Part shown: in pieces, positions 10,235 through 64,000 of the stretch | How the letters are laid out: each line of letters begins with the position of its first letter | Position numbering within the stretch: the first letter of the stretch is position 1 | The notes under the pieces: generated by a model | What the model was told of the DNA's origin: nothing | Databases searched by the model: none | The model's input: the letters and a program-made list of their open reading frames with translations, nothing else | Translations under genes and position numbers: made by a program | NCBI RefSeq assembly: GCF_011397635.1 | Contig: NC_064772.1 | Location: forward strand, 12,601,035 to 12,665,034 | Origin: Epinephelus fuscoguttatus | Lineage: Eukaryota > Chordata > Actinopteri > Perciformes > Serranidae | Reading direction: 5' to 3' | Length of the DNA: 64,000 nt

Positions 10235-10432
10235 TTCAATGTGATGTTCATGTATGATAGTGTTTTAATTGAGTATTTTTTATTTGTTAGTGTCCCTGAT
10301 GGTCTTTGTTTATTTTATTTGATTTTCAGGATCACCTTCTGCAGTTTCATTAACCAGGTGGACTATACGTTGAGGAAGTTCAGTTCCATTTTGTTTGGAC
10401 ATCTCTTGTTCTTTTGTAACAAAGATTTTAAA

Positions 10433-13400
10433 ATGGGTCCCGGCTTGAAAGAGGAACAAACAAAAAGAGGATCAAAATGTTTTAAACTAACTTTTGTTTT
10501 TTTCTTGCTGAATATCAGCAGTTTTTTTGTTCCAGTCACAGGGTATGTACTGAGGTCTTGCCATATCAGTCACAGAACTGCCATATGTTCCAAGAAGAGA
10601 CTCACTGCTGTCCCTCAAGATATTCCCTCAACAGTGAAAGGTTTGGACTTGTATGGAAACAAAATTTCAAAAATCCAAGTATCAGATTTCAAAAAGCTGT
10701 CAAATTTGACAGAGTTAAATCTGAAATGGAATATAATCTCAGAGATAGATACAGGCTCCTTTACCAATCTGAATTCCCTCAAGAAGTTAAATCTAAATGA
10801 TAACAAACTTACTGGACTTGGAGACAATGTTTTTGATGGTTTGGGCAGCCTAACACATCTCAGAATGAACAGAAATCAGATCAAAACAGTGGCATCCACC
10901 TCTTTTAAGTCCTTGACGAACTTGATGGTTTTGGACATCTCCGTCAACAAACTGTACCGCATAACAAATGTTCATACTATATTACAGCACCTGCCAAATC
11001 TACTGGAGCTGTCAGTCGCAAACAACAACTTAACCTCTTTTCAGTCGTGGGAACTGACAAACAGCTCACTAAAACTTGCCCACCTTGATTTGTCTCAAAA
11101 TCCCATTGGAGACTTTAGGATCACTGCAGATGTTTTTCCTAATCTCACCTGGTTAAACACTGGGGGCTCTTCTAAGAGGCATCACATGAAATGGGACGTT
11201 CGTAACAAGACTTTTCTTCGTAGAGTGTCTACTTTTGATATTAGTGGGCTTCAAATACCTTCAGAAGACATGAAAACAATACTATGGACCTTCAACTCCT
11301 CACTGACGACAGTGAAGATGAATGATATGAAACGCACACACCTGAGAGCCTTAATTAACATCTCCTGCAGCATCCCAACAGTGTCCTCACTTCAACTCAG
11401 AAGTAACAACCTCTTTTTTGTGAGTTCAAATTTGTTACTGTTGTGTTTTAAGGTAACAGAGTTAGATTTAGCAGATAACTCAATGAAAAATATCAAAGAC
11501 GATGCCTTCAAATATCTTCAAGATATAACGGTCTTGGCTCTGAATCACAACAGGCTTTCATCTGTTCCAGCTGCCATAAGGAATCTACCAACTCTTGAAG
11601 AGCTAGATCTCAGCAAAAATAATATCACCACACTTGGGTGTCACGATTTCGCCAATCTGACAAAGCTCAGACAGCTCAGCCTTCATCAGAATTCAATCTC
11701 AGCTCTACAGGGGTGTGTTTTCAAGGATTTAATACACTTGGAAGTTTTAAAGCTACAGAATAACAGCATTTCTAAACTGAATGATGCTTTCATAAAATAC
11801 TTGCCAAATCTGAGACAACTGCGTCTGAATTCAAATAAACTCACAGCAATTAAACGTGGGGAATTTAGGGGCTTGCGGTCCCTCCAGAACTTGTCATTAC
11901 ATGAAAATCAGATAACAGTACTTGAAAATGGGTGTTTTACTGGACTGACAAATCTTATGGATATCCAGCTGCACAAGAATGATATTAAAAGACATAAAGA
12001 TTACAAAGATGGTTTCAGAGATCTGATAAATTTAAAACGATTGGATTTGAGTAACAATAACATTAAATACGATGAGAGCTCAGCTTTGCCTGATCCACCA
12101 TTTTCTCATCTGTTCAATTTGGAGACACTGGCTTTTACTGGAAATCACCGCAGAGGGAAGTCCCAGCTACCTTGCAACTTCCTGCAAGGCTTGACTAATC
12201 TTTTAGATTTCACTGGCAGGAATCTTCAGCTTATATCCTTGCACAAAGACACATTTAATCACACGCCAAAACTGCAAAACCTTGATATAAGCTCAAATGA
12301 ACTTATGGATCTTTCTTCAGAATTGTTTTACCCAATTAGAGATCTCAAAAGCCTCTATATATCTAGAATAAATCTTGGGTCTCTAGACTTCTTTAAAGAT
12401 GCCAGCCTAACTAAGCTGGAGTTCCTGCAGGCAAGAAAGAATCAGTTTTCAGTTTTCAGTGAGGAAGCACTGGAGTCCATGCCAGCTCTGGCTTACTTGG
12501 ATCTTCAAGGCAATAGTTTCACCTGTGACTGTGATAACGCCTGGTTCCTCAAGTGGACAGAAAACAACCAGCAAACACAAGTTTTTGATGCCTACAGCTT
12601 TGTGTGCAACTATCCTCCACACCTTAAAGGTATGAAACTGTTGAAGCTCGATGTCCGGTCCTGCACAGTGGACACTGAATTCATCTGCTTTATCTCCACC
12701 ACATGTATGATCCTCCTGTTTATGGTGGCATCCTTCACCTACCATTTCCTGAGGTGGTACTTGGCCTATGCCTACTACATCTTCTTGGCTTTTCTCTTTG
12801 ACACAAAGCATAAAAACAAGCAAGCTCCAAATCAGTATGATGCCTTCATCTCCTACAACACCCACGATGAGCCATGGGTCATCAGACAGCTGTTGCCAAA
12901 ACTGGAAGGGGAGCAAGGCTGGAGATTGTGTCTGCACCATCGAGACTTCGAGCCAGGTAAGACCACCCTTTACAACTGGCATTAAACACATTTTTAGCCA
13001 TGCTAGTGCAATAGCTTTTGGGACGGCAATATCAGTCTGTCCAGAATCAGTGGCAGTGTTTGGGTTCTGGGAGCAGAGGCACAAAGCAACATTGACAAGG
13101 CTGGTATATGCACTGACAGGTATGATTGGGAAATGACACACAGGTGAACAGGAGGATGTGGGAGTCAGGTAACCAGGAGGAAGGAAAGTCAAAGGGGAAC
13201 TGGTGGACAAATAGAGAGCACCAAGCTTAATAAAACTTCGTAGAGATCCAGGGACCTTGGAGAGGTGGGGATGTGGCTGGACAGAGGGACAGGAAGGCAG
13301 AATGGTCAGAAATAAACACAAATGATGTCACTGTGACCAGGCCCCCAGGAAGTGGGCCCGACTTTGAAGCCATTTAGATGTAGTGACCAAACAGTACAAC

Positions 13401-16110
13401 ATCTGAGTCTGTAATATGATGCCATTAGGTTCAAAAAACATTTTCACATGACCAACATTGGGAAAGAACATTGGGGCGGCTGTGGCTCAGAGGTAGAGCG
13501 TCGTCCACCAATCGGAAGATTAGTGGTTCAATCCCTGGCTCCTCCAGTTTGCATGTCAAGATACAGAGCCCCAAATTGCTTCCAATGATGCTTCCATCGC
13601 TGTGAGAGTGAATTAAAAACTGAGTAGCAGGTGGCACCTTGTACGATAGCCTTGGCCACCAGTGTATGAATATGTGTGTGTGAAGAAAGGCGCTATACAA
13701 ATGCAGGTCCATTTACCAATGAGGCATCTGTAAATCAGTAAATCAGTATAATTTATTTTGAAAGTCTAGAGGAGCTGCACATTTAACCCTATTCTCGTTA
13801 TCGGAGGGCTAAACAGCAAGTTAACTGCTCAGCCAGCGGAGTCTTAAGTGCACACTCTGTAGAATTAACAATGTGGAAGATCCGGGCAATTTTATACACA
13901 GGAAGCTGAACGTTTTTGGCTTCATGTTCCACTGAGCAACTTTCATAGGAATGAACGGGGCCTCCTTTGGCTCTTTATACAACCGTGATTGTGACAGAAG
14001 TATCTCAGCAACTATTAGCTGATAGTTGTTGATCTTTTTGATTTGATGCACACATTCATGGCACCCCTAATGATGAAATCTACTAACTTTGATGTTCCCT
14101 ACATTTTCAGAAGGTCAAAGTTTTACTTTTTCCAAATACCTGCAAAATAATATTTCCATCAGTCTCAGATGCACAAAGCAACACTGTGCCTCACAGCCTT
14201 TAGCATGGCTGTAGACACTGGGTCTTGTTTATCTATGCAGCTGCAAGTTCCATATTTTCTATTGTGAATGCAGAGCATGTTGAACACATTTGACAGATCA
14301 AAATCTACATTACGTCATGAATGCAGCCTTTTTTGATGATGGTGGTGATGGCATTGAATGTTTTATACACATAGCAGGAAACATTTTGTGTGTTATGGCC
14401 AATATTTCTAACTTCAAATATCTGCAGTGCATTATGGGCTTTGAGTCCAGTGTCAGGGAAAAAGGGGGGAATATTTGCTTTCCCCTTGTGTCCATCTATT
14501 TTCAGTGTGTACACTTGACATGTTGAGCTGTAATCTGGCAGTCAGTGTGCTAAATTGTATATTACTTAAATACTGTATGGCTTAAGCCAGTTGTTTGTAC
14601 TTTCTCTTATACTCCAGAGGATGTCGCCATTGTACTTTTTATACTGCACCATCAGAAGAACAAATGAGGAGAACACACATTTTGTTTACTATCCATTTTC
14701 TCAGTCCTTTTTATTTTTCTCTCGCTCAGGTAAACCCATCATAGACAACATTACAAATGCCATCTATGGAAGCAGGAAGACCATCTGTGTGATCAGTCAC
14801 AGATACCTTGAGAGTGAGTGGTGCTCCAGAGAGATCCAGGTGGCCAGGTAATGTGTCTTAGTATTTCTGTATGAACCTAGTTTGAATGATTAATCCATCA
14901 CTGGCTATGCTTATTCTGTATATTAATGGGGTCTCTATAGTTATGAAATCTGTGTGTTTAATCTGTTTAGTCTTTGAATTCAAGCCATTGGAAAAAAAGT
15001 AGGAAAAGGTCTAGTTTATCCCATAGTTGTTTCTAACACTGGGAAAGGAAATGATGTTTGTGTTGAGTACTGCTCTTTTTTGTTTTCAACGTTCCCCTAA
15101 AAAACAAGGAAAAGTAAGGCTGAGTCTCCAAATAACAGTAGCACAAATTTCAACTGAAAAAAAAATGCTAAAGGAAATGCAAATTGTTGTGTGTTTCCAT
15201 TCACCAGTGCCATATGAATTTATTAGGATGGAGGTTCATTAAGATAAACAGTTGGTGGCGCCAATTCTCCAGTGATTATAGCATAAACGGGGGAAAGGGC
15301 ACAACAATATGATTTGATTAACGGAACATAACAAACCTCAAACAATGAAAAACTGGAAAAATAGATGGAAATTTGTTTTTTATTTTGTTTTTTCAAGATT
15401 TTTTTTTTGATGCGCCAACTTTTACACCTCAGACAGACCTTTTTTTGAAGTTATATTTCAGGGTTTTTTTTGTTTGTTTGTTTTTGTTTTTCAATCTCCA
15501 GCTTTTCTCTGTTTTTTTTTCTGTAAGGTTTTTGTAAGTTTAAACCATGCTGTCATCATGAAAACTGCCATAATGTTAAATCTAAGACAAGTCTGAAACT
15601 TAAGGGAACTTAAGGTAGAAGCAGAAATAATTTCACATAGGTTTTTAAAAAATAATGTCTTTGCTTCAAATTTCTCTGAAATCTATCTGTCATTGTCAAT
15701 AAACTACCTTAAAAGCAATTTGAACACATCACATTGGGATCTAGGGACCCAGAAACCTATGTCATTATTTTTCCATGATTTATTTTGACATTTTTGAGAC
15801 ATTTAGTTGATAAGAAAAAAGACATGCTGAATGGTGCTGTCCTCTCCTCTGTCTTTTTCCTTTGTTCAGCTTCCGCCTGTTTGATGAGCAGAAGGACGTG
15901 CTCATCCTGGTGTTTCTGGAGGACATTCCCACCACTCAACTGTCTCCTTACTACCGCATGAGGAAGCTTCTGAAGAGGCAGACCTATTTGAGCTGGTCTC
16001 GAGCCTCAGAGCACCCTGAACTATTCTGGGAGAGACTCCGCCAAGCTCTGAAGACTAGAGAGGATCTCGGGGAGGACGAATTCAACCTGATTGTGACGGA
16101 CAGACCGTGA
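10433..16110 (+). CDS. tlr22-like: Toll-like receptor, TLR22/TLR13-like (TLR11 family)
   Basis: Type I membrane receptor that senses microbial ligands and signals through a cytoplasmic TIR domain. Coding exons are 10433-12956, 14730-14847 and 15870-16110; phases match (G|GT, AG|C) and give 960 residues, normal for the family. In order: a signal-peptide-like hydrophobic segment (about residues 17-36), an N-terminal cysteine cap, a long series of leucine-rich repeats with LxxLxLxxN cores, a C-terminal cysteine cap (CDC at about residue 698), a transmembrane segment (about 751-777), and a TIR domain from residue 802. The TIR shows box 1 (YDAFISYN), the BB loop (RDFEPGKPI), a YLESEWC segment and box 3 (FW), all intact. 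I start at 10433 because the signal peptide follows; the frame is open upstream to 10241. TLR22, TLR23 and TLR13 are hard to separate by eye, so the symbol is provisional. The next gene converges on it. AATAAA hexamers at about 16385 and 18046 are possible poly(A) signals. Confidence 0.93.
12957..14729 (+). other. TLR intron within the TIR domain, with SINE
   Basis: This 1.77-kb intron (GTAAGA...CGCTCAG) interrupts the TIR coding region just after the BB-loop proline. If it is retained, translation meets TAA at 12983-12985 after nine extra codons, giving a receptor without most of its TIR domain. It contains a tRNA-like SINE at 13473-13718. The open frame on the opposite strand at 12449-13321 is a shadow of the TLR exon and intron. 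Confidence 0.85.
13473..13718 (+). mobile_element. tRNA-derived SINE
   Basis: The head reads like a tRNA with RNA polymerase III promoter boxes: A box TGGCTCAGAGGTAGAG and B box GTGGTTCAATCC, spaced as in tRNA genes. A tRNA-unrelated body follows, ending near GCTATACAAATGCAG. It lies in the first TIR-domain intron of the TLR, in the same direction as the gene. Confidence 0.8.
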
Positions 16111-34402: not shown

Positions 34403-37400
34403 ATGAAGCTGCTTTCCATTCTTGCACTGGCTCTTCTTTGGGTGGCTGTTCAGGCAGCAGGTTAGTCATTGTTTGCAGAACAACTGAGATTACAATCACT
34501 GAAGAATGTTCACAGATAAAATGTTTGCATATCCATATGTATGGTTCTGCAAATTAAAATACAAATTCTTATCCTGATTTACTGCATGTACTTGCTGTCT
34601 TTATGTTGGAGTGAATGCCTTGCCAAACTGCATGCTAAATTTGAGCAGTGTTTGTTGTCTTGCGTACGCAGAGGGTAAAAAACTTTAAAAGCACAAGTTT
34701 AAAATGACCATGATGATGATATCTCCAGGAAGGTTAATAGGGTTGTTGATCACTATAAATTAACAAAAACTTTCTCAGTTGTTTAAGCAAAATTGCATGA
34801 TTGGCTCAATGGCCATTTGCTTGCGATATAAAATAGGTGACTGACAGCTCTCTGCATCATCACATGTGTTTAAAGCTGCACTAATCAAAATGTTCACATA
34901 GGTAAAAATGACTTTGTGTTGTTAAAGGGATTGCTCATGGTGAGAAAGACATACTTATCACCAGACTCTACAGTTCCCCTCAGTGCTACAGAGTGTTTTT
35001 AGCATCTTTCAGCTTATTGTTTTGGTTTTCTGGACTGCAACTTGATTTCTAATCAGAATTACAACATAGCGCATTAGCTAATGTTAGCTTTGATAGCAAA
35101 ACAAACTGGAACAAACCGTTTAAGTGTCATCCTCCTTTGTAAAATTGGCATAGTAATTAACCACAAAGCTGACCATCCCACCTTCAGCAATCCTGTCAGA
35201 TCATCCATCGCCTGAGTGAGAGCGTATGGGTCGGCTAGCCTGGTCCCGTCGGTACACGTTTACAGTTTCAAGTGACACTCACAGTCTAACCCTAACCCTA
35301 ACCCTCTCACAGAACTATGTTTTATTTATAAACCAGAGCAAGTTTTAGATTGGGAGTTGGAATTGTACATCATGAGTCACTCGACATTAAAGAATTGCAT
35401 GTTTTAAAATGACTTATTTATATTTTATGATTTTTATGAACTTTTGTGATTTCCCTTTAATTGTTTTTATTGTTCTATGTACTTTTATTGAGTTGTCATT
35501 CAGCAGTTTTGCATGCATTTATTTATTTATATATTTTAAAAGCACTTATTAATCTTCTTCTTTTATGTCGGTTTTCTTAATCCAACCCTAACACTTATTT
35601 TCATTTATTTTATACAAATTTTATCTCGCTCCTTTTATTTACAGCTACCCTAAGATGTAAATTTGGAGACCCTGGGAAGCTGGAGGACTTTGTTTAAGAC
35701 CTACTTCCCACTGCCAAACTGCCCTGGGCCCAATCTACTTTGCATTTTTTTAATAAAATTTAACAGGGCTTTTAAGGATCTATTTGGTTTTAAACACAAA
35801 AATTATTTTAAGTATCTTATGGATATATATAGCCCCCGAGAGCCCGTGCCCCCGGAGGGCTCTCTTTAGAGCACTGCACTTTTACCCTAACCTAACCCTC
35901 TCCCAGAGTGAGTGACATGACATGCTGCATTTGTAAATTCAGTCAGATGCCCTACACTAAAACGAGAGCCCTGTTGGTCTAAGAAATGAAGCATTATATG
36001 TCTATGTAAATTAATGAATGGTTAAGTGAATTGCACACCGCTTGCTGCTCTGCCACTCCAAGAGTGGATAACCGAACAGTACATTCATTCCAGTGTGCTC
36101 CGGCACTCGGAATGAGTTTTTCTGAACTCACCACTCGCATCATCGTCCTCCATTGTCTGCATTAGCTTGCTAGCTAGCGCTAGCTAATGTCTGTGGAGAA
36201 TTGTTTTGACTCCAGCTAAGCCACGCCGACCCAAAAATGTCATACTGTTTACTAACAGTAAAAATATCTGTTGTTTCTCAAATACTGCTACATTGTGAAC
36301 AACAAATCAAACAAACAGGAGGAGAGCTAGTTAACATTAGTGGTTAGCTGTTAGCAGTTAGCAACTGGTGGCCAGAACTAACTGCTGATATAGGCTGCAT
36401 GGAGTTGCACTAAGCATTCAAGCTCTTTTCTGTAAAACTCGGCATTGACCAAATGTAAATTACAACGTTTTCATGACGTAATCTTGTAAAATGTAGTTTT
36501 AAATAGGCTTTTGAACTTTTTTTTTTAGTCATGCGAAGGAAAGTTGTTGTTTTTTAAAGGTTTAAATTAACTTGTGCTCATGCAAAGGTAGTGTAATGAA
36601 GGACTGAATGACTTCATGACAGTTATTTTTTATAATGAAGAATTCTTTGTTTCCATGGCAGAGAAGGGGGAATAATTAACGACAAAAACAAAATAAACAA
36701 TAACAAAAAAACCATTGGTATTGTTATTTATTGATATTAAATTGTTATTTAATATCAGTATCGACCCAGTATTTCAGAATGACTGCAGTCCTACACAGTA
36801 TGTCACACTCATGGTTCATAGTATATTCTCATCATCATCATGCTCATCGGCCCAACACAATTTGTATTCGCTGAATTCTTACTGGATGTTGTTTGAGGCT
36901 TGGATCTTCTTGGGAAAACTGAGCACACAAAATATGACTTTAATAAAAGTTGTTTAAGGTCTCACAGTATTTAATATCACAAAACCCCACAAAAGTTGCA
37001 TGAGCCAACAACCCTCAAGATGTTATCTGCAGTATTAAAAGTGGGCTGCCAAAAACTTGTTTGATTGGAATATCAGATGACTCTACTGCCTGTGTGCACA
37101 TGCTTGTGTTTGTGCAGGGCGTCATGGTTGCTGTACGGCTTTCTCCAAAGTCCATGCTGTGAACCACATCATAAAAAGAGGAGGGGCGGTGCAGTGCCGG
37201 CGGCAGGGCATCACCGAAGGGTGCACCATCAATGCTGTGTAATATTACATTTCCTGCTGTGTCTTTTCTCTCTTTGTATCTGTGATATTAAATGAGAGTC
37301 CTTGAACCTGTGGCTATGTTTTTCCCCCATGTCCTCCCTCCATGTGCTTCCTTTTCAGGATGGCCAACTTCCTAGTTTAAATGTTTTAAATTTCCCATCA

Positions 37401-37594
37401 TCACCTCCTCCCAATTTTACCAGACTTTCTCACAGTGATCTTTCCCAGATTCCAAAGTGATATGTCTAAGGCTGGCTCACTTCCAACTTTTTGTTGTCTC
37501 TGTGTCTCTACCAAGTGTACTGCAGTGGAAACGTCGCCACGTGTGTGTGGACTCAACACCTCACAAGATGCGGAAACTTCTTGCAACTTTGTGA
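34403..37594 (+). CDS. CC chemokine, CCL27/CCL28-like
   Basis: Small secreted chemokine that I assembled from three short exons: 34403-34460, 37118-37238 and 37516-37594. Junctions are G|GTTAGT...TGTGCAG|GG and GT|GTAATA...ACCAAG|T. The phases (1, then 2) are the standard CC-chemokine pattern and match the CCL20-like gene at 19369-20949. The product is 85 residues. Exon 1 is a signal peptide (MKLLSILALALLWVAVQAA). Exon 2 has the adjacent cysteines (GRHGCCTAFSK) and then VQCRRQGITEGCTINA. Exon 3 has VLQWKRRHVCVD and ends LLATL before TGA at 37592. The extra cysteine before the third canonical one, and KRRHVC, resemble CCL28 (CRIQ...GDC, KRRRIC). A cysteine-proline is absent after the fourth cysteine (VDST). 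The long basic tail of mammalian CCL28 is missing. The second donor is weak. It could be a decayed copy, but the frame is intact. Confidence 0.75.
35284..35310. repeat. Short interstitial telomere-like repeat
   Basis: Three tandem CCCTAA units followed by CTCTCACAG. A related CCCTAACCTAACCCTCTCCCAGAG occurs at about 35883-35906. Both lie in the long first intron of the CCL28-like gene. Confidence 0.6.
35660..35880. repeat. Probable retroelement or transposon tail with GC hairpin
   Basis: The segment ends in GAGAGCCC...GGGCTCTC, an 8-bp perfect stem with an 11-base loop (35840-35866). AT-rich sequence precedes it and CTTTAGAGC follows. A 3' terminal hairpin would fit a Helitron-type end, but no CTAG terminus is clear. 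Confidence 0.3.
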
Positions 37595-37599
37595 TAACA

Positions 37600-39330
37600 T
37601 ACACATGGGCACAAACACACAAACACATACACAGCTGATTAACAATCAAAAAATGTATAGCAACAAATACTTTCTGCAGCTCTTAAACTGTCTCAGCTTT
37701 CCATTTCAGAAGTACCAACCCACAACCTTCCCACTGTTAAAAATACTCACAGTCAATGTGACACAGTGGCCAGACAGCTTCATGGCGTCAAAAGGCCTCT
37801 ATTTGGAGTGGCTGGGTACCCATCCCGCCGGGGGTTACTGCTCACTGTTATGAATGTTAGCTTTGTGATTACGTTAGCTGCTGAGCAAAAGGCTATCGCC
37901 ATGCAAACGATCTCTTACCCGGTGTGTGTGTGCTGTTCTACTGGCTTAGCTGCTAAGAGGCTGTTGCTGCGCAGTGGCTTGTTCTTCTTGGGGGTCATGT
38001 ATGTTACTGTGTCTCTGGCTTAGCTCCTATCAAGAGACAATGGCTTAGCAATGGCCTGATCTTCAAATCAGCTCCCTCTGCGGACATACATCCAGCATCT
38101 CAGAGCAGATAACACTGCTCATTTTTTCCCCCAGATTTTGTCACCTTGTTTTATATACCTATAATTACGTATATAGCCATATATACCCATAGCAATTTTT
38201 TAGATCATTTAAATTTGGCTGGGTGGTTAATAACACATTTTTCTACAGAAGGTTTCCTAACTACAGAAAGCTTGTTAAGTAAAAACTCAAAACAGTTTAT
38301 GAATTTATGAAACATAGCCACAGTCTTGAGGTGTGGTTACCTGTGCAGATGTAATACCGCACAAGCAAATGCCAAGATATTCCAAATGGAAACAAGCTCA
38401 CCAAAACAAAGCATATCTTAACTGTCTATTGTTTCTACTTTTAAACTGACACACACCTTTATCCCTTAAGCAACACAAAAAATTACGAAACCATGAACTT
38501 CACAATATGCTGCCAAAACGTGCCAAGTAATGCAGGCCTACTGGTTTTGTGTTCCTATCCAGCAGCAACAGAAAAACCCACAAGGGAAAGAGCAACAGAC
38601 ACCTATGCAGGAGGAAGACCAAAATCTGAACATCCCGACCACAACTGCAGACAACCAGTCTGTCGTGTTTGTCTTCTGTTACTACAAACTGAAGAGTCAT
38701 TCCCTTTCTGAAACTGTGTCTCGGTGTCTGTCAAGAAACATGCTACAAAAGATATCTGCTACTAATGCAAGAAAGACAGAGTTGCTCGTAAGCCGACCAC
38801 CACAGACACAAAGATTATAGAAGCAGATTGAGAGAGAGCCAACCCTTTGTCTCTCGCAAACTCAGATCAAACTCCGATCAAATGGGCTGTATTACCTATT
38901 TCTTACATAAATGTCTTTATAAACATATTTTAGTGCAGTGTTTGGCTGTAAAACAAGACTTTGTGAACAGGAAGTGAACACCATTGTATTGTATTGTAAA
39001 AATGGAGGATGAAAATACTGAGATCAAACGGTAAAACTTAGCAGTGCTGATCAACTACGAACCAAGACTCTGTTACTGCATGTTAGCTAAAATAGGTTTT
39101 GGAAACTGTTTCCTATGTCAAAACAAACAAACTCGCATTACATCATCCACCAGCAAGAGTGCTTATTGACAGAGCATTCTGGTTGTTTTAGGTTTCCATT
39201 TTTAGGTTTTAGTTACCTCTGAGCAAAAGTGAATGTCACGGCCCTTTTTTTTTTTCCTTCTTCTTCTTCTTTTTTTTTTTTTTTTTTTACTGGTCATGTA
39301 GCAACAATTTCAAAATTATTTGCATCTACT
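37600..39330. other. Intergenic, no gene recognised
   Basis: Between the CCL28-like stop codon and the minisatellite I find no exon with matching splice phase. The frames at 38493-38820 lie in ordinary AT-rich sequence without domain features. Confidence 0.4.
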
Positions 39331-39472: not shown

Positions 39473-39769
39473 AACATTAACCCTCTGACTGCGTTTGGGT
39501 CAATTATGATGCGTTTTTAGTTGAAATATTTTGTAAATAAAATAACCTGACCCTTAATCTCTTTCCTAATCTTAACCTGTTTGGAAATAGCAAAAGTCAG
39601 CTTCTATAGATTTCCTAACCCAAAAATATAATCATTATTTTTCTTCTTCTTATTTTTTTTTTTATCTTTTACTTTTCTTCTTTTCTCTTTTAATTAGTTA
39701 ATTAGTTGGTTGACTCATTGTCATAATTTGAAATTTAGGGCTTAAGTATATTTGGGAGTTGTTTTCAAA

Positions 39770-40443
39770 TAGGACCTTGGGAACATGGGACCCTGAAAAG
39801 ATAGGACCAAGGGAAAATCAGACCTTGAGAACACTGGGACTTAGGACCCTGGGAGCATGGGACCCTGGGAACATAGCATCCTGGGAACAACGTAGGCCCC
39901 TGGGAACATAAAACCTTGGGAACATAGGACATTGGGACCCTGGCAACATAGCACCTTGAGAGCATAGGACCCTGGCAACATAGCACCTTGAGAGCATAGA
40001 ACCTTGGGAACATAGGCCCCTGGGAACATAAAACCTTGGAAACATAGGACATTGGGAATATAGGACTCGAGGAACATAGGACCCTTGGAGCAAAGGACCC
40101 TGGGAACATAGCACCCTGGCAGCATAGGTCCCTACCAACATAGGACCCTGAGAGCATTGGTCCCTAGCAACATAAGGCCCTGGAAACATAGGACCTTAGG
40201 AACATAAGACCTAGGGAACATAGGACCCTGGCAACATCGCACCCTGAGAGCATAGGACATTGGGAACATAGGACCCTGGGAGCATAGGACCTTGGGAACA
40301 TAGGACCCTGGGATTATTGGACCTGAGGAACATATGACCCTGGGAGCGTAGGACCCTGGGAACATGAGACCCTGGGAGCATAGGACCCTGAGAACATAAG
40401 ATCCTGGGAACACAGAACCTTTGAACCACAGGACTGTGGGAGG
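39770..40443 (+). repeat. 16-bp minisatellite, long arm
   Basis: About 42 tandem units with consensus CATAGGACCCTGGGAA and unit-to-unit variation. Because 16 is not a multiple of 3, all frames cycle through the same 16-residue pattern every three units. This produces several long overlapping open frames on the minus strand (for example 39765-40157) that are artefacts, not proteins. Confidence 0.92.
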
Positions 40444-42794: not shown

Positions 42795-43362
42795 ACCTGG
42801 AAATCCAGGTGACCCGCACCTAGCAAATTTGAATTTGCTCTGCATGGGGATCTGGCCTCGACAAGCAGAGCCTGCTGAATCGCCAGTTGGGCCAATCAGA
42901 TCAGTCTATCTGACAGAGGTGGGCTCTGGGCGGGCGTAACATGATGAAGACAGCACTGCGCCGTAGGAGTCGAAAAGTTAACAGCCAAGATGGCAGCTGC
43001 TGAAGGACCGTTTCCATTCAGTTTAGCTTTGGAAGAAACGCTAACTACACTTAACTTTTTCTTTGAGAGAGGAATAGAAGACTGCCCTAGAAGCCTTTGC
43101 TTTCAGGAAGAACGTTTTTGCCGGTTTGCCGACAGGATACGGCAAAAGCATAATATATCAGTTAGCCTCACTGGTCGGCAAACCAATGGGGCTTACTGCA
43201 GTGAATACGTCACCTTGTTTTTTGCTCTGGTTGGCCATCGTGCTATCCAATTGCGTGCGGCGGCATTTGAAATGCCTCAGTTATTGCTGCCCCTTGGAAG
43301 GGTGTATCGGTGAGGGCCAGACTCAAAATCTTTCTAGATTTGAGTCTGGATTTCCAGGCTAC
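42795..43362 (+). mobile_element. Inverted-repeat element carrying a helicase gene fragment
   Basis: The ends read CCTGGAAATCCAG (left, from about 42797) and TGGATTTCCAGG (right, to about 43358). Inside, the frame from 43081 reads FRKNVFAGLPTGYGKS, then IIYQLASLVGKPMGL. This looks like the Walker A (motif I) region of a RecQ-type DEAD-box helicase. A TAG stop lies directly upstream at 43075-43077, and no helicase motifs follow, so it is a captured, non-functional fragment. The 107-codon frame starting at 42990 reads the helicase segment out of phase. Confidence 0.6.
43081..43215 (+). pseudogene. RecQ-like helicase fragment (Walker A region)
   Basis: About 40 codons with GLPTGYGKSIIYQLASL, matching the nucleotide-binding motif I pattern of RecQ helicases (PTGxGKSxxYQLP). 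There is a stop just upstream and no downstream DEAH box or motif III. It is a passenger inside the repeat at 42795-43362 and has no expected function. Confidence 0.55.
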
Positions 43363-43579
43363 CTTATGTCCCCTCCCCCAAGTTCTAGACAAATGATTGG
43401 ATTGTCTGCTAATTAATTTGGTGATCCCCTTACTTTTTATAGAATAAAATATCTTTGATGTTAGATTCAGCCTGCAATTTTCATGATGATAATATGATAA
43501 ATAAACCAAAAAATATATATAATTGAGCTAAAACAGCAATAAATATGGTTAAATAGCAATAAAGTTGAAAAGCACAAAA

Positions 43580-43930: not shown

Positions 43931-46022
43931 GTGCCTAAATAGAGCCTCACAGAGCTGCTAGCTTGGCTGTAGATTCTTGTATTTTCGGTGCACTGACCTA
44001 TTAAAAAAACAAAACAGTAGCTAGCAAAAAGTACCTTCAAAAGGTACTGTCCCTTGGCAGATAAATAAAATACCACAGTTTTATTGGAAAGGGCTCTTTA
44101 AAGGCCAATGGTTACAGACTAAGTTAACAGGTATCACTGGAATCATTTGGCTAAACAAGTAGATCAAACACAAGATTACAGTATTCAAATTCAATGAGTC
44201 AGGAGAGGAAATGAAAGGTACGTAGAAGGCAAACAGGTTTCGGGCAGGACTAACGAATAAATACATTCAGGCACATTTTGCAATATAGACTTCCAGCAAT
44301 ATACAAATGTCTCACAGTGTCTGCAGTGGCGTGCTCTATCAAAATCAGTCTGATGTTGCTACAGCTAATTTCTAGATAAAAATCACCATCTTGATTTCTC
44401 ATTTTGGGGTTTTGTTAGATTTCAAATGAAAAACCAGTCTTGGCTTTCAGATTATGAAACTCTCATAGCCAAATTTAGATGATAACTACAATTTTGAAGC
44501 TTATATAGGACGATGACAAGCTAGCAGCAAACACTTGTAAACTGCACTGTGGTCCTACTCAACACCACTCCTTCTGTGTCTCCCTGAAATTATGAATGCA
44601 AGGCTTACAGTAACAAGTCAGTGGGACAGTAGGTTTTCATCTGATGTCAAATAAACAAAGTTTTGGCTTCTTATATAGTAATATTAATATACAGCATGCG
44701 CCCAAAGTCCCAAGGTCAATGGGCTCTGTCACGTATCTTAGATGCCACAGTGCTGCAAACTTTGAAGGCCCTTTCCTCAAAATTATGGCTTGATGACAGT
44801 CATGTAATGTGACGATATTTTGCTTAATCTTTAGAGTCCAAAAACAACGATATCATTAGAAAGCAAAGAATCCCCTCTTTCCAGTAATGTCTTAATTAAA
44901 ACCACATAAAAATGTTGAGCGATAAAGCAGGTAGGTGTCTCCTCAATATCACTGGGAGACTATTTGAAGGCCTCTGCATCATCCTGAATACTATTTTAGA
45001 AGGCCAAAAAGTGAAAAAGATAAATGGCAGTAACTATGTTGGCACATATTGGGAATATGCTGCAGGTTTATGTCACAGCATGAAAAATTATCTCAGAAGG
45101 TGACAAAGTTGTCAATTGATTTGATATGCTTTTATCTGACTAGAGTGGAAAACAAATCAAAATGGGCATGAACTTAATTATTTCCAGATTTATTGCAGTT
45201 GTAAAGCAATCAATGAAACAGACAGGCACATACATAACAGATGGAATAATAAACATTCAAGTACAGGTATGCAGAGAGGAGGAAACACTTCATTAAGAAT
45301 ATAAGGGAAATTTTGATATTATGCAGACAAATGTGAAGGCAGTGATGTGGTGGCAGTCATGCGTTTGCAAGTTTAAATAAATTATCTAAATGTGGCTGCA
45401 TTATTTTTTTCAACTTTGCCTATAACAGAGATCTGCTGCCATAAATGGAAAAATAGATAGCGTGCGCATTAGCTTGTGTATTCTACCTTTGCAAAGTTTC
45501 GGAATAATTTTCCAGGGAATTATGAAAGCAAAGAACCTAAAGCAGGAACAGTCTGAGGCATCTTTGTTGTTTTATAATGAGTTGGCTGAAAAACAAGGGG
45601 ACTGACAAATAGTCTAAAGCAGGGGTCTTCAACGTTTTTCAGGCTAAGGACCCCTTGGCCCAAAGACAGACATATATTTTCAAAAAAAGAGTTGCACTTG
45701 AGATAGCTCTGAATATCTTTCGGGTCTTCTCTTGTTTGCCTAGCTGCTAACTAAGCAGTTTTAGCATTGCTAGGTGCGTTAATCTCACCATCCGCACTTT
45801 CAGTGGTGGTTTCCACAGTGTGTCAGAGTCTGTTAAAAAGTTATGAAACAATCCATTGTGGCACACAAGAATGTCTGTACACTTGACGTAGTAATAAAGC
45901 TAACTAGCTAATATGCAAAAATAATTACAGGTGTCGCACAGTGATGTAGCGTTAGCTAACTCACATGATCACATAACAATTGATGGGTAACAAACGTAAT
46001 CAAAAATGTTGTGTACTGTTAA

Positions 46023-48171: not shown

Positions 48172-63999
<15,828 letters not shown>

Positions 64000-64000
64000 A

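Follow-up and report, generated by a model that had tools for sequence, protein, structure and literature searches.

A putative four-exon CC chemokine gene of CCL28 type in the tlr22 region of Epinephelus fuscoguttatus

Two chemokine genes in the tlr22 region

The window, as we call the whole stretch of 64,000 nucleotides analysed (positions below are those of the window), contains two CC chemokine genes on opposite strands. A CCL20-like gene lies on the minus strand with four coding exons (20949-20868, 20557-20455, 19635-19561 and 19438-19369), and the gene studied here lies on the plus strand, where a three-exon chemokine had been described at 34403-34460, 37118-37238 and 37516-37594. A TLR gene with an LRR exon and a split TIR domain was found at 10241-16107 (plus strand) and assigned to tlr22 by its neighbours, and a MAP3K15-like kinase gene was recognised by eye on the minus strand from about 49600 to 64000 and on into the right flank to about 81 kb, with the kinase domain confirmed for one exon. 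When 70 kb on each side were inspected by eye (open frames of at least 120 codons), CNKSR2-like exons were seen on one side and the MAP3K15-like gene on the other, and Pfam confirmed one SAM domain and one kinase domain among the flanking exons. A tlr22 region with such neighbours is described in passages of PMC6403153 for mudskipper, croaker and puffers. Judged from its gene content, the window is the teleost tlr22 region.

Two further features were seen. A 16-base minisatellite of about 37 copies occupies 39834-40412 and is read through by extended open frames of the minus strand; that several of its frames are open would follow from a unit length not divisible by three. Two similar helicase-like frames, one at 43078-43413 and the other in the right flank (98981-99373, window-relative), read AFAFRKNVFAGLPTGYGKSIIYQL and SFLCKKDVFVVLPTGYGKSLIYQL and are possibly a mobile element.

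The three exons on the plus strand were spliceable and reproduced the expected translation of 85 residues, without frameshift or premature stop in any of them. Exon 1 (34403-34460, 58 nt) holds the ATG and the signal peptide MKLLSILALALLWVAVQAA and ends in phase 1 at the donor CAG/GTTAGT. Donors were scored with a simple splice-site matrix and ranked against all GT sites of the window, and this one was strong, being matched by just 0.6% of the sites. Exon 2 (37118-37238) runs from GRHGCC through the extra cysteine (VQC) to EGCTINA and ends in phase 2. Its donor, TGT/GTAATA, had been read correctly but is weak, as 45% of window GT sites score as well. Exon 3 begins at 37516 and reads VLQWKRRHVCVDSTPHKMRKLLAT, and is followed by G + TGA (37591-37594), the end of the protein in the preliminary description. 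The junctions 34460/37118 and 37238/37516 are therefore in phases 1 and 2, respectively, and the product shows a hydrophobic leader, CC at residues 24-25, VQC at 46, EGC at 55 and HVC at 70. Thus, the hallmarks of CC chemokines are all present: adjacent C1 and C2, conserved C3 and C4, the hydrophobic leader and the two intron phases. As previously stated, the same phases are found in the CCL20-like gene, and exon 2 of the latter extends one codon further past the third cysteine.

Alternative splice pairs between exons 2 and 3 (donors 37225-37299; usable acceptors 37516 and 37526) were rejected, as they produced 9-10 residues between cysteines three and four, an un-chemokine-like open frame or an immediate stop; 37238 with 37516 was the sole pair tried that gave the usual 14 residues. 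A loose three-exon search returned 13 chains in 15 simulated 64-kb sequences, and therefore chance could account for an exon skeleton of this kind taken by itself.

A proposed third donor and fourth exon

The gene had also been reported to end without an antimicrobial-type basic tail, which was not confirmed, since an in-phase GT lies at the stop itself and a candidate exon, strongly basic and with a cysteine, follows downstream. The in-frame TGA (37592-37594) sits inside a phase-2 donor position, TT/GTGATA (37591). Any phase-2 donor starting with GTGA or GTAA, if translated, yields one more codon and then a stop, and this would account for the stop of the three-exon model. In the four-exon model, exon 3 would span 37516-37590 (75 nt, phase 2 at both ends) and finish at the proposed donor TTT/GTGATA, 14.7 codons past the fourth cysteine, with G + TGA as the start of intron 3. 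Exon 3 of the CCL20-like gene is likewise 75 nt long with phase 2 at both ends; it stops 15.7 codons after its fourth cysteine, and its phase-2 donor lies one codon further on than the one proposed here. The third donor is weak, 48% of GT sites scoring as high, and neither it nor donor 2 has a G at +5. The weakness of donor 2 is shared by both models, as the three-exon version needs this donor too. Weak donors at both places could reflect tissue-limited splicing, a weak gene or early decay.

The region downstream, as far as position 46000, was searched for in-phase acceptors with a pyrimidine tract, of which one stood out. The proposed exon 4 with its stop lies at 38563-38629 on the plus strand, in the right phase and behind a predicted intron of 972 bases. 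Its translation, (S)NRKTHKGKSNRHLCRRKTKI, also written (F)SNRKTHKGKSNRHLCRRKTKI, has a net charge of +9 and includes one cysteine, which would be the sixth. The acceptor is a tandem CAGCAG (CCTATCCAGCAG), so that the exon could start at 38563 or 38566, giving 106 or 105 residues in total. A motif scan placed the first AATAAA or ATTAAA after the gene at 39536-39541 (plus strand), with none between 37595 and 39535. Exon 4 was not taken to derive from a repeat, as its DNA matched only itself in the genome.

The threshold used to assess this exon (net charge 8 and density 0.35) was set after the exon had been seen. It was passed solely by the two tandem acceptors of exon 4 among 2,032 acceptor-by-phase combinations on both strands, and by no exon in 20 simulated sequences, one strand each. 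When overlapping 1-kb stretches elsewhere in the window were assayed in 1,479 stretch-by-phase trials, no trial had such an exon at this threshold. With net charge 6 and density 0.25, 16 trials had one, which in 4 of them included a cysteine; with net charge 5 and density 0.2, there were 74 such trials, 48 of them with a cysteine in the exon. Thus, at the looser thresholds a basic in-phase exon within 1 kb turned up in 0.3% to 5% of the trials.

A phase-2 donor right before the in-frame stop was found at 5 of 13 exon-3 loci of other chemokines in the genome (GTAAGT at three, GTAAGA and GTAACG at one each), and was lacking at the other 8. One of these 8 does have a phase-2 GTAACC, but this is off-consensus and much further away, at 26.7 codons. 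In the five loci the donor lies 16.7-17.7 codons past the fourth cysteine, 2-3 codons further than in the present gene. Classified on exon 2, the five comprise one CC gene (C15:30.948 Mb), three CXC genes and one unassigned locus, and five further loci with a CC exon 2 have no phase-2 donor at the end of exon 3. From these assignments, this plan for the end of exon 3 is common among the chemokines of this genome, but among CC genes it was seen just in the CCL20-like gene and one other; the CXC exon plan is less telling as support for the fourth exon. Five other chemokine exons share the donor-as-stop form, and predictions of other small chemokines can be truncated wherever a phase-2 GTAA or GTGA donor is mistaken for a stop. 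In the four-exon model, with a phase-2 end of exon 3, the gene would fit the plan of its CCL20-like neighbour; four exons are also given for human CCL20 (PMC8806797), and the coding exons of zebrafish chemokines, tabulated under neutral names, number 3, 4 or 5 (PMC2416438). Judged from the sequence features above, the gene end given in the preliminary description is probably wrong, a fourth exon having been missed.

Likeness to CCL28 and descent of the gene

The chemokine sequence itself is beyond chance. The Pfam IL8 model (PF00048) scored 24.8 bits with three exons and 24.0 bits with four, above its cut-off of 21.3; among solved chains at E <= 10, five distinct sequences matched, with CCL28 first (E 0.0059) and CCL20 as the other four; and the CCL28 score was reached by none of 400 shuffles, either with all letters shuffled or with the cysteines held in place. 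In the cysteines-held control, CCL28 had no lead over CCL20 and CCL27. NCBIfam returned nothing for either chemokine of the window. The protein was not most similar to CCL20; its raw score was 48 with its own CCL20-like neighbour versus 79 with human CCL28; the CCL20-like gene matched CCL20 at 1e-11 and CCL28 at 0.0032.

The claim that the extra cysteine is placed like that of CCL28 held, as its spacing to the third cysteine was equal in the structure-sequence alignment, and this fifth cysteine fell at the C30 register of CCL28 in both the three- and the four-exon alignments. The third disulfide of CCL28 is C30-C80 (PMC10339762, in part), and through it the basic tail is anchored at its base to strand 1 (PMC12556802, in part). 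In the four-exon model, the extra cysteine would thus gain its CCL28 partner. With that exon added, the alignment covers residues 23-103 of 106 and reaches residue 83 of the human CCL28 structure 6cws, past the sixth cysteine, with LCRRK beside VCHRK, so that all six cysteines are in the register of CCL28, the sixth provided that exon 4 is spliced in. The bit score barely shifted (from 20.1 to 20.3), and thus what the tail adds is agreement in register rather than a more significant match. Apart from being the best match among solved structures, human CCL28 resembles the fish protein in the CCT start of the core, the extra cysteine nine positions before the third, the KRR-x-x-CV block and, with exon 4, a post-helix cysteine followed by basic residues. 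In contrast, the tail after the sixth cysteine has about 28 residues in human CCL28 and 6 in the fish protein, the N-loop of the latter is three residues longer, and the recognisable chromosomal neighbours differ.

The resemblance to CCL20 and the CCL20-like gene lies in the four exons (four-exon model), the phases, the GC-x-INA motif and, for the CCL20-like gene, proximity on the chromosome, whereas the raw score is lower and the extra cysteines of the neighbour are elsewhere. These form a pair, one separated from the CC motif by nine residues and the other from the fourth cysteine by 13, a spacing reminiscent of CCL15 and CCL23. Both are six-cysteine CC chemokines with a third disulfide, the cysteines of which lie in the N-loop and the helix; it is the CCL20-like neighbour, unlike the present gene, that resembles them in this spacing. 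Two six-cysteine chemokines with different third-bridge geometry may thus stand side by side.

Descent was analysed in a tree of 11 sequences and 65 columns that included CCL20, CCL25, CCL27 and CCL28. In the best tree the fish gene joined human CCL28 and CCL27 (support 76/83), but no branch was strongly supported, and the branch of the fish gene was the longest of the 11 (5.93). None of five other groupings was rejected at 0.05, with p-AU values of 0.447 for CCL28 alone, 0.339 for human CCL20, 0.233 for the CCL20-like neighbour, 0.22 for both CCL20 rows and 0.088 for the two CCL25 rows. Of the CCL27/CCL28 affinity first proposed, the match to CCL28 among solved structures stood, but the grouping in the tree was weak. 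In frog and human, the neighbours given in passages of PMC8811506 are IL11RA for CCL27 and C5orf28 for CCL28, other than those recognised here. Given these neighbours and the weak tree, that the gene works like CCL28 is better supported than that it is CCL28.

The reading that we favour, and hold to be probable from the sequence, is that of a single-copy, four-exon fish CC chemokine gene of CCL28 type, encoding six cysteines and a basic tail in 105-106 residues. It was weighed against a gene of three exons that ends at 37594 and yields a tailless protein of 85 residues with an unpaired fifth cysteine, the basic frame at 38563 being chance or a relic. Exon 3 indeed reaches a stop without further splicing, the third donor is weak, and most of the other exon-3 loci (8/13) lack a phase-2 donor at that place; but a secreted protein would keep a partnerless cysteine, no AATAAA or ATTAAA occurs for 1.9 kb past the stop, and the chance of a cysteine-bearing in-phase exon of charge +9 within 1 kb is 0.3-5%, according to how loosely the threshold is set. 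Three exons are therefore unlikely. A decaying pseudogene, its frame still open and its donors already lost, appears very unlikely: the absence of stops and frameshifts, the strong donor of exon 1 and the six cysteines in the register of CCL28 all speak against it, despite the very long branch and donors 2 and 3, where ATA replaces the final AGT and the scores are no better than those of ordinary GT sites.

A different matter, compatible with three or four exons as it concerns descent, is whether the gene could have arisen as a tandem duplicate of the CCL20-like neighbour, evolving fast and acquiring its CCL28-like cysteines and tail independently. The two genes are about 13 kb apart, with equal phases and, in the four-exon model, a 75-nt exon 3; both have extra cysteines, at different places; GCTINAV resembles GCDINAI of CCL20; the CCL20 groupings were among those not rejected; and the recognisable neighbours are not those of frog or human CCL27 or CCL28. 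However, CCL28 is the best match, with the neighbour well below it in raw score, and the best tree places the gene with CCL27 and CCL28. On this balance we find such an origin doubtful. Distinctly unlikely is the full form of this idea, a convergent CCL28 in which six cysteines, the third disulfide and the basic tail arose from a CCL20-type gene in a gene pair of the tlr22 - map3k15 - cnksr2 block; if true, it would supply the CCL28 that surveys found missing in teleosts. Among the genes that have not been identified in teleosts, a survey of frog chemokines (PMC8811506) names ccl28, with reference to Nomiyama 2013, while part of PMC9241943 cites GenBank records that name croaker and fugu proteins CCL28.

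The predicted protein and the rest of the genome

In the favoured four-exon reading, exon 1 would supply the signal peptide, exons 2 and 3 the CC core with the fifth cysteine at the place of C30 of CCL28, and exon 4, the splicing of which we infer, a tail that is short and strongly basic and carries the sixth cysteine, counterpart of C80. The predicted third disulfide would tie the base of the tail to the first strand. The mature protein would be secreted and strongly cationic, its computed charge at pH 7.4 rising from about +10 with three exons to about +19 with four. Such a protein may bind glycosaminoglycans on mucosal or skin surfaces and attract leukocytes via a receptor of CCR10 or CCR6 type, and direct action on bacterial membranes is probable. 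According to section 8 of PMC3568907, CCR10 is one gene in each of four surveyed teleosts.

Teleost CCL27/28 proteins are known, and research on them deals with mucosal chemoattraction and with the antibacterial peptides that they yield. The group treated in PMC9241943 (trout CK11, croaker and fugu CCL28, zebrafish and turbot CCL27b) likewise comprises small cationic CC chemokines, a likeness by description, as the sequences are not printed in that text. Parts of the same paper report C-terminal segments with a net charge above 5, seven synthetic tail peptides that inhibited bacteria (MIC table), a croaker peptide that killed them, and membrane permeation by tail peptides of other fish CCL27/28. 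The word "cysteine" is absent from its main text, so a sixth-cysteine tail is not discussed there; and the portions of the literature on fish CCL27/28 covered here held no printed fish CCL28 sequence or exon-number table. The present gene is a new member or near relative of this group, with a clearer CCL28 signature than first perceived. A model that ends one exon early loses both the presumed antibacterial part of the protein and the partner of one of its cysteines.

Regarding copy number, no close paralogue was found in the genome: three of nine matches were the gene itself, and the other six had E values of at least 0.11. A genome scan with PF00048 listed 58 exon matches, the gene's own exons not among them, and thus absence from this list means little. 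Human CCL28 as a query for a fish CCL27 elsewhere gave no match and also missed the gene itself, being therefore uninformative, and human CCL27 gave two weak matches (E 1.5 and 2.7); visual inspection to 1.5 kb from the better match showed no convincing CC exon. At C23:28180204-28207085, near-identical tandem chemokine exons were observed, and a repeated PEVEPTTRGSY stretch lies ahead of two of them, a pattern that suggests a recent local expansion.
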